Below, in pieces: positions 9,942-63,595 of a stretch of 64,000 nt of DNA. The stretch covers positions 552,205 through 616,204 of the forward strand of contig NZ_JADQTO010000002.1 in NCBI RefSeq assembly GCF_015704865.1, given 5' to 3'. The stretch comes from Actinoplanes aureus. Its GTDB lineage: Bacteria > Actinomycetota > Actinomycetes > Mycobacteriales > Micromonosporaceae. A model generated the notes under the pieces. That model ran no database searches, was not told where the DNA came from, and worked only from the letters and a program-made list of their open reading frames with translations. Each line of letters starts with the position of its first letter. Positions within the stretch are counted from its first letter, which is position 1. Made by a program: the position numbers and the translations under genes.

Positions 9942-11342
9942 TCAAGGTCGGAACACACCGACGGGTCCAGCGCCCTCCACAGCCGCGCTGTGCACGGCGG
10001 AGAGACAGAGGCCGAGGACCGTACGGGTGTCGCGGGGGTCGATGACGCCGTCGTCGGCCGAGGCGGTGCACTGCCCTGGCCGGCCCGGTACGGGCCAGCT
10101 GAACCGGAATCGTGGTTCGTCGGTGCGGTCCGCCGTGTCGTCGGCGGCGCAACCGATGGTGAGGACCAGGTGCGGGACGGCCGACTTGGCAACCGCGTGC
10201 ACCAGGGGAGCGTCGTGCCGGGCGTCGGTCTCGGTTTCGCCCGGAGCGCCGCGATGCCGCAGGAAGAGCAGCGGAGTGGCGGTCGCGTTCGCCAGGTGCA
10301 GGAAGTGGACCGCCTTCTGGGCCTCGGCGGCCGAGCACACGCCGCTCGGGGTGGCGAGCACCCCGAGCGGGTATCCGTGCAGCTCACCCCAGCCGGCCAG
10401 CAGAGCCGGGCCCTGCCCGGGCTTGAACTCGTCGAAGTCGCTGTCGTCGAGGATCCGGGCCAGCACCTCACGTGGCTCGAAGCCGGCCGGGTCGGCGGAG
10501 GCCAGGGTGAGCAGGTCCTCGGCGTCGTACCGGGGCGCGGCCGGGTAGAGGGTGCGCGGCGGCGGTCCGTGCTTGCGCCAGTTGAGGCGGCGTACGCACT
10601 GGCGGGCCAGCCGCAGCCCGTCCCGCTCGTCCTCGGCGAGCTGGTCGGCGGGCCCGGCCGGCCCGGCCGGCACCACGGGAGTGGCACGCACTTCCACGCC
10701 GGAGTGGCCGTTGGCCGTGCCGCGTACCGGCTGCGGGTGGATCGTGAGCACCTTGGCGTGCCCGCGCACCATGATCGTGTAGTCGGAGAGCGCCGGCAGG
10801 TAGGCCGCGTCGCCGGTGGTGAGCCCGAAGATCACACAAACGGTCGGTACCCGGTCGGCGGTGAGGCGGCTCAACTCGCGCGCGATGCCGCCGGCCGGCG
10901 TGCCGCCGCCCGCCGACTCCACCAGGTTCACCAGGGGCAGGCGGTTGACCGACGCGATCCGCGCGGCCCGGCGGATCTTGTCCGCGGTGTACGGGTTGAC
11001 CGCGCCCCCGTCCACCGTCGGATCGTTCGCGACGACGACGCACTCGACGCCTTCGACGACGCCGACCCCGGTGACCACGCTGGCGCCGACCGGGTACTCG
11101 GAGCCCCAGGCCGCGACCGGGGAAAGCTCCAGGAACGGGCTGTCCTGGTCGAGCAGCATCTCGATGCGCTCGCGTGGAAGCAGCTTGCCCCGGGCGTGGT
11201 GCCGGGTGACCCACTTCTCGCCGCCGCCGGCGCGTGCCTGGTCGAGCACGGCCTCGAGTTCGGCGAGAAGTTGCAGGGTGGAGCTGCGCCCCTCCAGGTA
11301 GGCGGGATCGCGGGGGTCCAGCGAGGTGTCGAGCACGGTCAT
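9942..11342 (-). CDS. Acyl-CoA carboxylase beta-like (carboxyltransferase) subunit, divergent C-terminal half
   Basis: A 466-aa protein, somewhat shorter than the 510-540 aa usual for methylcrotonyl/propionyl-CoA carboxyltransferases. The N-terminal crotonase-like half is recognisable (HARGKLLPRERIEMLLD; VNLVESAGGGTPAGG), as is the FDEFKPGQGPALLAGW region. In the second half the segments that normally give the glycine-rich oxyanion site and the alanine/glycine-rich end motif are missing or replaced (TIGCAADDTADRTDEPRF). Together with the odd alpha subunit this suggests a degenerate or newly specialised carboxylase. Its ATG overlaps the stop of a 30-codon repeat ORF at 11339-11431, which also provides the ribosome site (AGGGGA). 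Confidence 0.83.
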   Translation of the reverse strand: MTVLDTSLDPRDPAYLEGRSSTLQLLAELEAVLDQARAGGGEKWVTRHHARGKLLPRERIEMLLDQDSPFLELSPVAAWGSEYPVGASVVTGVGVVEGVECVVVANDPTVDGGAVNPYTADKIRRAARIASVNRLPLVNLVESAGGGTPAGGIARELSRLTADRVPTVCVIFGLTTGDAAYLPALSDYTIMVRGHAKVLTIHPQPVRGTANGHSGVEVRATPVVPAGPAGPADQLAEDERDGLRLARQCVRRLNWRKHGPPPRTLYPAAPRYDAEDLLTLASADPAGFEPREVLARILDDSDFDEFKPGQGPALLAGWGELHGYPLGVLATPSGVCSAAEAQKAVHFLHLANATATPLLFLRHRGAPGETETDARHDAPLVHAVAKSAVPHLVLTIGCAADDTADRTDEPRFRFSWPVPGRPGQCTASADDGVIDPRDTRTVLGLCLSAVHSAAVEGAGPVGVFRP

Positions 11343-11431
11343 GCTGTGCTTCCCCTGGCATGCCCTCCTGGCCCTCGCCTGCGACGTTGAGGGGCAGGCG
11401 CGGCCGGGTGCCGCTCGGTGCAGTCGGTCAT
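11339..11431 (-). CDS. 30-aa coupling ORF, repeat cassette copy 1
   Basis: A small frame starting MTDCTERHPA, with AAAGG upstream, whose TGA overlaps the ATG of the carboxyltransferase gene (ATGA). At DNA level it is one of three near-identical cassettes in the window (others at 55347-55436 and 62667-62759). The first 24 nt and the segment TCGCAGGCGAGGGCC are shared. Relative to the other copies it has one extra base in the middle and one fewer near the end, so the peptide is out of phase in between (RRRRGPGGHARG) yet total phase and the stop/start overlap are kept. That favours a role in translation coupling over a functional peptide. Confidence 0.6.
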   Translation of the reverse strand: MTDCTERHPAAPAPQRRRRGPGGHARGSTA

Positions 11432-11497
11432 GCCTTTGCCACCTTTGCCATGCCCCTTCCCTGTTACGCCGGTGCCTCTCGGCCACCTCCGTAACGA

Positions 11498-54627: not shown

Positions 54628-55350
54628 ATGCCCTTCCTGTCGTGGGGCCCGGCGCTGCTCACGCCGGTCGCCGCACCCGCCGATGACGGCCCGGGGAACC
54701 CCTGGTTCTCCTGGCGATATGTCCAGGAGAACGCCGAGGCGCTCGGCGCCGCGCTCAGTTTCCACGCCGGACTGACCGCACAGACGGTCCTCATCGCCCT
54801 CGTGGTCGCGCTGCCGCTCGCCGTCGTCGCCTACTGGATCAGACCGCTGACCGCGCCGATTCTCGCACTCTCCGGCGTGCTCTACACGATCCCTTCGCTG
54901 GCTCTGCTCGCTCTCTTGGCCCCGCTGGTCGGCACGACCAGCACCACGTCGGTCCTGATCGCCCTGGTCATGTATGCGTTGCTGGTGCTCGTCCGCAACG
55001 CGCTGGCCGGGCTCACCCAGGTGCCGGCCGAGGTGCTGGAGGCGGCGGCGGGCATGGGTTACGGCCGGTTGGGCCGGCTGTGGCGGGTCGAACTCCCGCT
55101 CGCCCTGCCCGGCATCCTCACCGGCGTACGCCTGGCCACGGTGTCGACGGTGGCTCTGGTCACGGTCGGCTCGCTGATCGGACAGGGCGGCCTCGGCGAC
55201 CTGATCCTGAGCGGCTTCCGGAACAACTTCTTCAAGGCGCAGATCATGACCGCCGCACTGCTCTGTGTCGGCCTGGCCCTGGTCCTCGACCTGCTGTTGG
55301 CGGGTCTGGGCCGGTTGCTCACGCCGTGGGCACGCGGGAGGGTGGCATGA
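54628..55350 (+). CDS. Osmolyte ABC transporter permease 1 (OpuCB-like)
   Basis: A 240-aa permease. After an extracytoplasmic N-terminal part (WFSWRYVQENAEALG) come five to six transmembrane helices. The EAA loop is visible (EVLEAAAGMGYGRLGRLWRVELPLALPGILTGVRLA), the contact site for the ATPase. The ATG lies 2 bp from the divergent ATPase start, so the ribosome sites of each gene lie inside the other. The TGA overlaps the ATG of the 29-codon coupling ORF. Confidence 0.92.
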   Translation: MPFLSWGPALLTPVAAPADDGPGNPWFSWRYVQENAEALGAALSFHAGLTAQTVLIALVVALPLAVVAYWIRPLTAPILALSGVLYTIPSLALLALLAPLVGTTSTTSVLIALVMYALLVLVRNALAGLTQVPAEVLEAAAGMGYGRLGRLWRVELPLALPGILTGVRLATVSTVALVTVGSLIGQGGLGDLILSGFRNNFFKAQIMTAALLCVGLALVLDLLLAGLGRLLTPWARGRVA

Positions 55351-55436
55351 CCGCCTGCACCGAACGGCACCCAGCCGGGGCGACGTGTTCCCTCGCAGGC
55401 GAGGGCCGGAAGGGCATGCCGAGGTGCTCAGCGTGA
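55347..55436 (+). CDS. 29-aa coupling ORF, repeat cassette copy 2
   Basis: Starts at an ATG overlapping the permease 1 stop (ATGA) and ends in a TGA overlapping the permease 2 GTG (GTGA). Peptide begins [11 protein letters not shown] and contains LAGEGRKGMP, shared with copy 3. The end of the ORF carries GAGG 8 nt before the next start. A CCCTCG-CAGG-CGAGGG hairpin sits mid-cassette. Confidence 0.65.
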   Translation: MTACTERHPAGATCSLAGEGRKGMPRCSA

Positions 55437-56149
55437 ACTACTTCCAAGAGGGCATCGTCTGGCTCAACGACCCGCTCAACTGGACCAACCCGGGCGGCCT
55501 GCTGGACCGGCTCGTCGAGCACCTGGTGATCAGTTTCTGGGCCGTACTGCTCGGGTGCCTGATCGGATGGCCGATCGGCATCTGGCTGGGGCATCGCGGG
55601 CGGGGCGGCGGTGCCGTCGTCACCGTGGCCAACCTGACCCTGGCCATCCCGACCCTGGCCCTGCTGACCATCCTGCCGCTCACCCCGCTCGGCTTCGGCA
55701 AACCGCCGGTCGTGGTGGCGCTCGCCGTCTTCGCGGTGCCGCCGCTGCTGGCCAACGCGTACACCGGTCTACGGGCGGTGGACCCGGAGACCCGGGACGC
55801 GGCTCGGGGGATGGGGCTCTCCGGCGGGCAGCTGCTGCGCCAGGTGGAGTTGCCGCTGGCGGTGCCGTACCTGGCGGCCGGACTGCGTACCGCCGCGGTC
55901 CAGGTGGTGGCGACCGCGGCGCTGGCCGCCTTCGTCAACGGTGGCGGCCTCGGTCAGATCATCAGCGCCGGGTTCGGCATCGGGATGAGCAACGGCGGCG
56001 GAGGCCAGATCGTGGCCGGTGGCATCGCTGTGGCGTTGCTCGCACTTCTCGTCGAGGGCATCCTCGCGCTGGTCCAGCGCCTGGTCACACCGCCTGCGCT
56101 CCGTCCACGCCGGAGCCGTACCGCGTCCGCGGCGATACCGGCTGGATAA
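55433..56149 (+). CDS. Osmolyte ABC transporter permease 2 (OpuCD-like)
   Basis: A 238-aa permease with about six helices and the EAA loop (DAARGMGLSGGQLLRQVELPLAVPYLAAGL). It starts MNYFQEGIVWLNDPLNW at the GTG overlapping the coupling-ORF stop, with GAGG 8 nt upstream. It pairs with permease 1 as a heterodimeric channel. The C-terminal ~20 residues are basic and polar (RPRRSRTASAA). A 139-bp gap follows before the binding-protein gene. Confidence 0.92.
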   Translation: MNYFQEGIVWLNDPLNWTNPGGLLDRLVEHLVISFWAVLLGCLIGWPIGIWLGHRGRGGGAVVTVANLTLAIPTLALLTILPLTPLGFGKPPVVVALAVFAVPPLLANAYTGLRAVDPETRDAARGMGLSGGQLLRQVELPLAVPYLAAGLRTAAVQVVATAALAAFVNGGGLGQIISAGFGIGMSNGGGGQIVAGGIAVALLALLVEGILALVQRLVTPPALRPRRSRTASAAIPAG

Positions 56150-61812: not shown

Positions 61813-62670
61813 ATGAACGCTCTGACCGTCGGCGTCATCGGCGCCGGCCGGGTGGGTGCTGTGCTGGGTGCAGCCCTGATCTCGGCCGGGCACCGGGTGG
61901 TCGCCGCCGCCGCGGTTTCCGCGGCTTCCCGTGAACGTGCCGCGCGCCTGCTGCCGGACGCCGCCGTTCTCCCGGCTCACGAGGTGGCTCAGGCCGCCGA
62001 GGATCTGCTGTTGCTCGCCGTACCGGACGACTCCCTCGCGGGTGTGGTGGCCGGGCTGGACCGGACCGGGGCGTTGCGCGCCGGCCAGGTCGTGGCACAC
62101 ACCTCAGGAGCTCATGGACTCGCCGTTCTGGGCGATGTGAACGGCATGGCGCTGCACCCCGCGATGACCTTCACCGGCGCGGACTCCGACCTGGACCGGC
62201 TCCCCGGGATCGCCTGGGGCGTCACCACCCGCGACCGCGTCTTCGCCACCCGGCTCGTCGCCGATCTCGGCGGGGTGCCGGAGTGGGTGGCCGAGGACTC
62301 CCGCCCGCTCTACCACGCCGCGCTGGCGCACGGCGCGAATCACCTGGTGACCCTGGTCAACGAGGCGGCCGATCTGCTGCGCTCGGCCGGCGTGGAGCGG
62401 CCCGGCCGGGTGCTGGAGCCGCTGCTGACCGCCGCGCTGGACAACGCCTTGCGGATGGGCGACACGGCGCTCACCGGTCCGGTCTCCCGCGGCGACGCCG
62501 GCACGGTCGCCAAGCACCTGGACCGGATGCCCGCCGACGCGGTACCGGCCTACCTGGCGATGGCCCGGCGGACCGCGGACCGGGCGATCGCCTCCGGCCG
62601 CCTGCGCCCCCAGGACGCCGCCGCACTGCTCGACGTTCTTGCCCGCACGGCTGTGAAGGAGACGGCATGA
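61813..62670 (+). CDS. DUF2520/Rossmann NAD(P)-binding protein (Rv3603c-like)
   Basis: A 285-aa protein with an N-terminal dinucleotide-binding motif VGVIGAGRVGAVLGAAL and a C-terminal helical DUF2520 domain (YHAALAHGANHLVTLVNEA). It resembles ketopantoate-reductase-type oxidoreductases in plan. In actinobacteria it almost always precedes panC, hence a proposed but unproven role in pantothenate synthesis. ATG preceded by GAGGA. The TGA overlaps the ATG of the coupling ORF (ATGA). Confidence 0.9.
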   Translation: MNALTVGVIGAGRVGAVLGAALISAGHRVVAAAAVSAASRERAARLLPDAAVLPAHEVAQAAEDLLLLAVPDDSLAGVVAGLDRTGALRAGQVVAHTSGAHGLAVLGDVNGMALHPAMTFTGADSDLDRLPGIAWGVTTRDRVFATRLVADLGGVPEWVAEDSRPLYHAALAHGANHLVTLVNEAADLLRSAGVERPGRVLEPLLTAALDNALRMGDTALTGPVSRGDAGTVAKHLDRMPADAVPAYLAMARRTADRAIASGRLRPQDAAALLDVLARTAVKETA

Positions 62671-62759
62671 CCGCCTGCACCGAGCGGCACTCAGCCGCAC
62701 CGACGGACGGCCTCGCAGGCGAGGGCCAGAAGGGCATGCCTAAGGAGGGCACAGCGTGA
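62667..62759 (+). CDS. 30-aa coupling ORF, repeat cassette copy 3
   Basis: Starts at an ATG overlapping the DUF2520 stop and ends in a TGA overlapping the panC GTG (GTGA). Begins [11 protein letters not shown], contains [20 protein letters not shown] near its end is 7 nt before the panC start. It shares its first 24 nt and the TCGCAGGCGAGGGCC core with copies 1 and 2. Confidence 0.65.
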
Positions 62760-63595
62760 CCGCGACCTCGCTGGTGCACACCCGCGCCGAGCTGGCGTCC
62801 GTTCTGGATCTGGCGCAGGGTGAGATCGCCGTCGTGATGACCATGGGCGCGCTGCACGAGGGGCACCGCCAGCTCATCCGGGAGGCCCGCAAGCGGTCCG
62901 AGTTCGTGCTGGTCACCATCTTCGTGAACCCGCTGCAGTTCGGGCCGAGCGAGGATTTCGAGAAGTACCCCCGGACGCTGGAAGCCGACATGGCGGCCTG
63001 CGCGGCGGAGGGCGTCTCGGTGGTCTTCGCGCCGGGCCGGGACGACGTCTATCCCGGCGGGGCACCGGCGATCACCATGCATCCGGGGCCGCTCGGCGAG
63101 ATCCTGGAGGGCGCCAGCCGTCCCGGTCACTTCTCCGGGATGCTCACCGTGGTCGAGAAGCTGCTGATGCTGACCCGCGCGGACGTCGCGTACTTCGGTG
63201 AGAAGGACTTCCAGCAGCTCGCGCTCATCCGCCGGATGGTCGCCGATCTGGAACTCGGCGTCGAGATCGTGGGCGTTCCGACCGTACGCGAGCCTGATGG
63301 TTTGGCTCTCAGCAGCCGCAACCGATATCTCTCGCCGGACCAGCGCCGGGCGGCGCTGGCGCTTTCTCGCGCGCTGCGCGAGGGCGCCGCGCAGACCGAC
63401 CCCGAGGCGGTCCTGGCCGCAGCTCACAAAATCTTGGCAGAGGAGCCAGACGTACGCGTGGACTACCTCTCCCTGACCGGTACGGACCTCGGGCCCGCAC
63501 CGGACGAGGGCGAGGCTCGCCTGCTCGTGGCCGCCAAGGTCGGTACCACCCGTTTGATCGACAATGTCCCGCTCCGTCTCCAGAAGGGCGCCTGA
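62756..63595 (+). CDS. panC: Pantothenate synthetase (pantoate-beta-alanine ligase)
   Basis: A 279-aa enzyme condensing pantoate and beta-alanine with ATP. The ATP-site motif [10 protein letters not shown], the [16 protein letters not shown] segment and [12 protein letters not shown] are all present. The GTG start overlaps the coupling-ORF stop, with AAGGAGG 7 nt upstream, so expression depends on that cassette. The stop overlaps the panD ATG by one base, so panC and panD are coupled. Confidence 0.96.

Follow-up and report, generated by a model that had tools for sequence, protein, structure and literature searches.

The closest described counterparts of the insert considered here are the MIRUs of mycobacteria. 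A 2025 review, citing Supply et al. 1997, presents these as apparently mobile elements that insert at start codons and carry an internal ORF coupled to the gene at -4 spacing, an arrangement that likely softens the insertion (PMC12548453), and two further papers describe them as well (PMC4213456, PMC2734929). The same review also treats RNA-unfolding translational coupling, in which ribosomes translating the upstream gene unfold a hairpin at a start codon (PMC12548453). In the genus Actinoplanes, the genome paper of Actinoplanes sp. SE50/110 mentions unspecified short repeats (PMC3364876). Our literature searches on the insert returned no paper describing it. Among other small repeats, the REP/BIME elements are small palindromic repeats located in untranslated spacers and needing RAYT (Y1) transposases, and the ERIC and Rickettsia palindromic elements are hairpin-forming inserts within DNA that is transcribed or translated, with in-frame reading in the case of Rickettsia. 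The MIRUs run in the same direction as the genes and, in the 1997 work of Supply et al., reportedly lack obvious dyad symmetry.

The element described below is dispersed through genomes of the genus Actinoplanes as an insert with a unit length of ~89 nt, at up to ~30 copies per genome. It resembles the MIRUs (40-100 bp, often tandem) in being short, dispersed and found in tandem, at one place as a triplet with a period of 89; in sitting at start codons and appearing mobile, with 131 of 134 copies beginning on RTGA and 13 of 15 sites empty in the relative G532; in its putative ORF with a 4-nt overlap to the next gene, which in 96 of the 134 copies ends on the next start; and in running in the same direction as the genes. 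It differs in belonging to another actinobacterial genus, BLASTN giving no clear match beyond the family, and in possessing a conserved hairpin, P1, that includes and co-varies with the host stop/start, the MIRUs having been compared by description only. The anatomy is otherwise the same, and what is new relative to the MIRUs is this hairpin and its match to the host site. With the REP/BIME elements it shares small size, a palindromic build, conserved mismatches and many copies per genome, but it is an open frame on start codons, and two genomes rich in it, the window's own (G000, 21 places) and G004 (31 places), are without a Y1 match. Like the ERIC and Rickettsia elements, it is a hairpin-forming insert tolerated in transcribed or translated DNA; those elements, however, do not lie on stop/start overlaps, carry no coupling ORF and have no known pairing with the host flank. 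RNA-unfolding coupling likewise involves a hairpin around the start codon that is opened by the upstream ribosome, as we propose for the insert, but there the hairpin belongs to one gene pair, whereas in Actinoplanes it would be a portable insert. Our preferred explanation, which we regard as probable, is that the insert takes up (A/G)TGA starts, mostly at gene overlaps, and works like the MIRUs, with a ribosome handover and an RNA hairpin. This suggests that start-codon coupling inserts are a class rather than a mycobacterial oddity, of which the hairpin joining host and insert letters is the testable part.

Copies in the window and in other genomes

In the window, the whole stretch of 64,000 nucleotides of Actinoplanes aureus DNA that was analysed, a scan with the family covariance model finds three copies at 80 to 111 bits, the next best place reaching 18.5. 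They lie at the positions, and end on the overlapping ATGA or GTGA starts, given in a sequence-only reading of the same DNA, which also had copies 2 and 3 beginning on an ATGA over the upstream stop, as they do. Copy 1 (11339..11431, minus strand; 92 bits) is an ORF of 30 codons, MTDCTERHPAAPAPQRRRRGPGGHARGSTA and stop, which ends on the ATGA of a carboxyl transferase gene (9942..11342, minus strand; Pfam PF01039, E 3.6e-59). Copy 2 (55347..55436, plus strand; 80 bits; 29 codons) stands between two genes for ABC transporter inner-membrane proteins (both plus strand and Pfam PF00528), the TGA stop of the upstream one (54628..55350) overlapping its ATG and the downstream one (55433..56149) starting on GTGA. 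Copy 3 (62667..62759, plus strand; 111 bits; 30 codons) follows a gene for a Rossmann-like/DUF2520 protein (61813..62670, plus strand; Pfam PF10728, PF10727) and precedes panC (pantoate ligase; 62756..63595, plus strand, start GTGA; Pfam PF02569, E 1.1e-95), whose putative ribosome-binding stretch, AAGGAGG (62742..62748, plus strand; 7 nt before the GTG), is inside the insert. Copy 1 too begins on an overlap, absent from the earlier reading, with a 7-codon frame read from the sequence, MAKVAKA and stop (11428..11451, minus strand); the G532 counterpart of this stretch (site 8) has one extra base and runs in frame into the gene start. The letters that the three copies had been said to share are indeed shared, but the second half of copy 1 uses another frame than copies 2 and 3, so that shared letters are not a shared peptide.

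The claim that these copies belong to a dispersed element is borne out by searches of the whole genome (10.7 Mb) and of relatives. Searched by BLASTN against its own genome, copy 2 retrieved copy 3 (E 2.6e-20), and a total of 18 places, one being the query, fell below E 1e-3; the weakest of these was unconfirmed by the profile search. The covariance model found 21 places there at E<=0.01, so further copies are not lacking, and 31 in G004. A tandem triplet with a period of 89 lies 2.7 kb past the window (C22:618947-619221), and tandem copies are present in other genomes as well.

The searches of other genomes, many of them drafts, place the insert in the genus. With copy 3 as the query, matches were obtained in 22 of 23 other genus genomes and in none of 16 genomes of other genera, and of the 200 genomes in a family draw, matches came from 31 of 36 listed for the genus, the window's own among them, and from one of the 164 others. 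Another copy as query matched 59 of 67 genus genomes, and a phylum draw by BLASTN (n=296, own included) yielded two other genomes with partial matches of 28 and 35 nt. The covariance model adds copies, mostly short forms, in G433 (2) and G442 (4), both missed by BLASTN; G003 and G469 have no copy by BLASTN or by the covariance model. Outside the genus, this model detects one short form in G334, which belongs to another genus, and none in nine more genera. When named genomes were scanned for the pattern, 26 stretches turned up, confined to Actinoplanes, Paractinoplanes, Symbioplanes, Jidongwangia and Amorphoplanes, which we take to be kin genera, and the phages and plasmids searched for the insert gave no match.

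Placement at gene overlaps and the open frame

Removal of 17 duplicates or hits too near a locus end from 151 profile hits left 134 distinct copies, a non-random sample made up of the window genome's own copies and mostly the best matches of its relatives. With (A/G)TGA at the start of 131 of these (ATGA in 122, GTGA in 9), placement relative to genes is not random. As the sequence-only reading held, the insert occurs as an open frame at stop/start overlaps between unrelated genes: 110 copies (82%) begin on a TGA closing a frame of at least 60 codons, compared with a background of 32% among the 2199 other RTGA places of these loci, and the proteins encoded downstream of 122 copies form 102 clusters. 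In the 96 copies mentioned above, the frame of the insert closes precisely at the start of a following frame, 60 codons or longer, which it overlaps; both overlaps are present in 79 copies, and 89 nt separate the two starts in 87 of the 134. A long downstream frame alone is a weak criterion, because 62% of the background RTGA places are followed by one of 60 codons. The remaining 38 copies, as read from the list, include 15 that precede a further copy and 6 that form an in-frame fusion with the gene; in some copies, the frame does not match that of the next start. ATGA is retained also in copies that have no long upstream frame.

The in-frame fusions (L084, L089, L137, L141, L153, L092) provide the downstream gene with a new N-terminus of ~25-30 codons. 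One worn copy, L021 (C33:48884-48972 in the window's genome), lies antisense over a gene start and is the sole such case noticed.

A purely selfish repeat that inserts at any [CG]C[AG]TGAC, with only the harmless insertions surviving, would also be expected at such places, as stop/start overlaps tolerate an 89-nt insert with both genes left whole. We consider this improbable: 31 of the 45 places of the motif in the window are inside genes, yet none of the 15 sites of the window's genome compared with G532 interrupts one, and the presence of 21 versus 6 places in two relatives would lead one to expect fresh insertions in dispensable genes.

Across the tested stretch, 125 of 127 copies have no stop in frame 0, and the other two frames contain stops in 27 and 39; column shuffles predict 8.4 copies with a stop among 110, where 1 was observed (0/500 shuffles). 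For copies that are not 89 nt long, frame-keeping by length was judged by eye and is not decisive. The near-uniform N-terminus, MT(A/D)CTERH in most copies, would fit a translated micropeptide working in trans, with the DNA repeated because the peptide gene was copied. However, the three codon positions vary alike (0.58/0.65/0.55 bits), an internal frame change in 7 of 85 standard-length copies, which still end on the next start, keeps the DNA and not the peptide, the short forms described below lack the middle, and the peptide has no match in Pfam. A function of the peptide is rejected for want of a codon-position signal and given the frame-changed copies, and the micropeptide account as a whole appears highly improbable. 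Since the frame is open while the peptide is unconserved, it is translation across the insert, and not the product, that seems to matter.

Under our preferred explanation, the ribosome ending the upstream gene would restart on the overlapping ATG of the insert, read the open frame of ~30 codons and pass to the overlapping start of the downstream gene. The host stop/start would be held in one arm of the predicted RNA hairpin, to be opened by the arriving ribosome. By forming in the mRNA, P1 could bar independent starts on the insert and act as a gate that hides its start unless an upstream ribosome arrives, whereby the downstream gene would stay tied to the upstream one; selection on P1 would then act through translation. 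As the frame stays readable across the junction and the predicted hairpin takes in the host start codon, the insert likely spreads without breaking the link between neighboring genes. Judged by eye, four copies (L068, L049, L152, L016) are a few nucleotides after a TANNNT-like box, at apparently leaderless starts. At such starts a start-codon hairpin would hinder rather than help, which counts against this explanation.

The hairpin P1

The two conserved blocks of the sequence-only reading, a head and a core, are real; what it missed is that they are the complementary arms of one imperfect hairpin and that the outer part of this hairpin is host sequence. After six truncated or odd copies were removed from the 134, 128 rows entered the covariation scan and RNAalifold, and 127 distinct copies form alignment A1, in which the arms take up columns 8-29 and 65-86. 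In the window, the 5' and 3' arms are found at 11413..11434 (host GGC and ATGACCGACTGCACCGAGC; coordinates counted) and 11357..11378 (GCGAGGGCCAGGAGGGCATGCC) on the minus strand for copy 1, and on the plus strand at 55344..55365 and 55399..55420 for copy 2 and at 62664..62685 and 62719..62740 for copy 3, where they contain an inverted repeat (62664-62677 / 62727-62740). The layout is NNC-ATG, a 1x1 mismatch, CC, a 2x2 loop, CTG, a 2x2 loop, CC, a 2x2 loop and GC. These 15 pairs have 97.3% of their cells paired over the 127 copies, the outermost pair, 8:86, being unpaired in 22. One arm contains the host stop/start, and the partner segment within the insert is matched to it down to the host bases.

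Changes on both sides are seen in nine pairs and 60 cells; none of 500 shuffles was as good on any measure, and slid controls reached at most 24 cells. In an unguided scan, the top covarying column pair joins host base -2 to the inner base 74 columns on, which are paired in 127 of 127 copies (103 G-C, 10 T-A, 7 C-G, 5 A-T, 2 G-T). The second joins the middle base of codon 2 to an inner base, and the third is almost never standard, yet changes in step (C.A 68, A.G 47, A.A 10). Mismatches co-vary at column pairs 18.76 (MI 0.60) and 17.77, each with 0/2000 shuffles, and weakly at 14.80 (34/2000 shuffles), although such shuffle tests overstate independence because the copies are related. RNAalifold returns the same helix at both ends, with a different register for two pairs in the middle. 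Over 14 pairs, G.T cells outnumber A.C cells by 30 to 6 (17 of the 30 at pair 20:74), and by 31 to 16 with the outermost pair included, which favors the sense-strand RNA. In 16 pairs of copies at the same site, several perhaps independent insertions, 102 of ~528 loop places differ versus 28 of ~704 arm places, a comparison that serves as support only. Two further hairpins seen by eye in the middle of the insert, P2 (GCGGC..GCCGC) and P3 (CCTCG..CGAGG), are absent from the consensus fold.

Folding energies add a different picture for full-length copies, in only 34 of 127 of which P1 comes within 3 kcal/mol of the optimum (mean gap 5.9); the window copies fold no better than shuffles (z -0.14 to -0.60). 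As energies alone do not favor P1 here, the case for it in full-length copies is one of covariation. The ~90-bp cassette of the sequence-only reading agrees with the unit of ~89 nt, but its shrinkage down to the hairpin went unseen: forms of 67-78 nt consist of only P1 and the stretch before the next start, and occur at panC (L158, L161, L174), at ilvN (L262) and in G442, G433 and G334. P1 is the predicted fold in 8 of 10 short forms. With RNA energies it is obtained in all six that were refolded (z -0.85 to -2.26; one shortened by the coordinates used), and with DNA energies in two of six, weakly. At the ilvN start, short P1-only forms are present in two genera, L319 (G334, gene named by eye) and L262 (G004). 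Four short forms, L158, L262, L268 and L321, bear a GCGAAGC cap, a sequence that forms an unusually stable mini-hairpin in DNA.

Covarying arms ahead of genes of core metabolism, namely panC and those for the acetolactate synthase small subunit, argJ, an amino-acid kinase, quinolinate phosphoribosyltransferase and dihydroorotate dehydrogenase, could also point to a regulatory RNA leader, a riboswitch or protein-binding site that is incidentally mobile and sets downstream expression. Against this, the Rfam covariance models gave no match at E<=1 in six loci, the downstream proteins are as diverse as noted above, and most orthologous sites examined are empty; we regard such a leader as quite improbable.

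Empty sites, host match and movement

The genome nearest to that of the window by PanC among 60 searched is G532. Of 16 insert sites, 15 could be located in it, 13 empty, among them the panC site of copy 3, and 2 filled. The empty sites are ordinary gene starts, one of them antisense to the copy. At the carboxylase site, the empty form reads GGCATGACCG, and the filled form GGCATGACCG, the insert and then AGCATGACCG. Relatives thus have both filled and empty sites when loci with and without the element are aligned, as had been suggested for checking the earlier claim, and it is from these empty sites that we infer that the insert moves. Short direct repeats surround the start at several sites, such as CTGCCATGAC at a mutY-like gene, where ctgccATGAC is found on both sides of the insert in G004 and is present in 4 of 5 relatives. 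Over 95 copies, the identical flank run is 8.24 versus 7.29, and the identity of a copy's own left and right flanks exceeds the different-copy level only at -2 (z 4.2) and weakly at +4 (z 2.0). These comparisons indicate that target duplication is likely, though not uniform, since flank identity goes beyond chance only at these positions; the left flank at site 4 is not host-derived.

The quinolinate phosphoribosyltransferase start carries triple, double and single inserts with different arms in three genomes (L009 18952-19226 in G000, L043, L044), is empty in G532 and G469, and is likely an insertion hot spot. Together with the empty relatives, these single, double and triple inserts offer a natural series for the effect of an extra overlapping ORF. 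At ilvN, six of 31 parsed genomes are filled (33 loci, two unparsed). A single old insertion inherited vertically is not upheld, as the six are scattered on the ilvBN tree, requiring six changes without clustering, despite a TAG stop common to all six and otherwise seen only in G433; repeated loss, lateral exchange or repeated insertion may account for the pattern. In G433 itself, the ilvN locus has a 24-nt spacer with a TAG stop, perhaps a scar.

The match between the inner arm and the host was followed at nine sites where a rare triplet precedes the start. Six have at least one empty relative with the same triplet (L068 4/5, L120 4/5, L088 2/3, L084 1/1, L125 1/5, L133 1/3), and the other three have none (L152 0/4, L082 0/1 readable, ilvN 0/8). 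The inner arm of each rare-triplet copy is the complement, that of L125 being seen nowhere else among the listed copies. At the panC and dihydroorotate dehydrogenase sites, the flank differs from that of the empty relatives and fits the common inner arm. It thus seems that either arm can adjust. The ilvN copies, which are apparently related, show simultaneous two-sided differences at three mismatches and one pair, and one pair is broken in G483. The pattern fits in-place selection on the structure of P1, and a guide for insertion could account for some of it as well. The idea that the target was copied as a template into the inner arm is rejected, as it leaves the conserved mismatches unexplained, for instance A.G at 14:80 in 124 of 127 copies.

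Such a guide forms the core of a further alternative, modeled on single-strand or RNA-guided transposons, in which P1 serves the mobility machinery: the inner arm would direct targeting by pairing with NNC-RTG, and the open frame would only make the insertion harmless. It draws on the triplets already present in empty relatives at six of the nine sites, on the retention of ATGA in copies that have no long upstream frame, and on the want of interrupted genes among the 15 sites in spite of so many intragenic motif places. However, the empty relatives at L152, L082 and ilvN lack the triplet; copies with a mutated guide would be expected at old sites, whereas 0 of 127 are unpaired at -2; and DNA energies do not favor P1. 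A Y1 transposase (PF01797) has no match in G000, G004, G005, G013 and G019, all many-copy genomes, and is rejected as the mover on this count, though 20 of 67 genus genomes have a match, among them the many-copy genomes G014, G520 and G530 with at least one each. An IS-derived MITE would share its ends with a transposase gene elsewhere; in G000, BLASTN and the covariance model, with half-copies covered unsystematically, saw no copy with a gene inside. We consider the guide possible but rather doubtful; if the inner arm does guide insertion, mobile DNA would have a novel means of targeting gene starts. The two roles might also be combined in a mobile RNA hairpin, whose inner arm, pairing with the stop/start of a gene, would pick the target and which would then act as the gate opened by the ribosome, with the MIRUs as relatives by mechanism. 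To this more speculative reading we give little credence; were it true, the element would enter operons without breaking them.

A different way to multiply a start region is seen in G521, at the panC start as well, where the gene's first 30 nt recur as four head-to-tail units (L177; GAGGACATGACACACGTGATCCACACCCGC).
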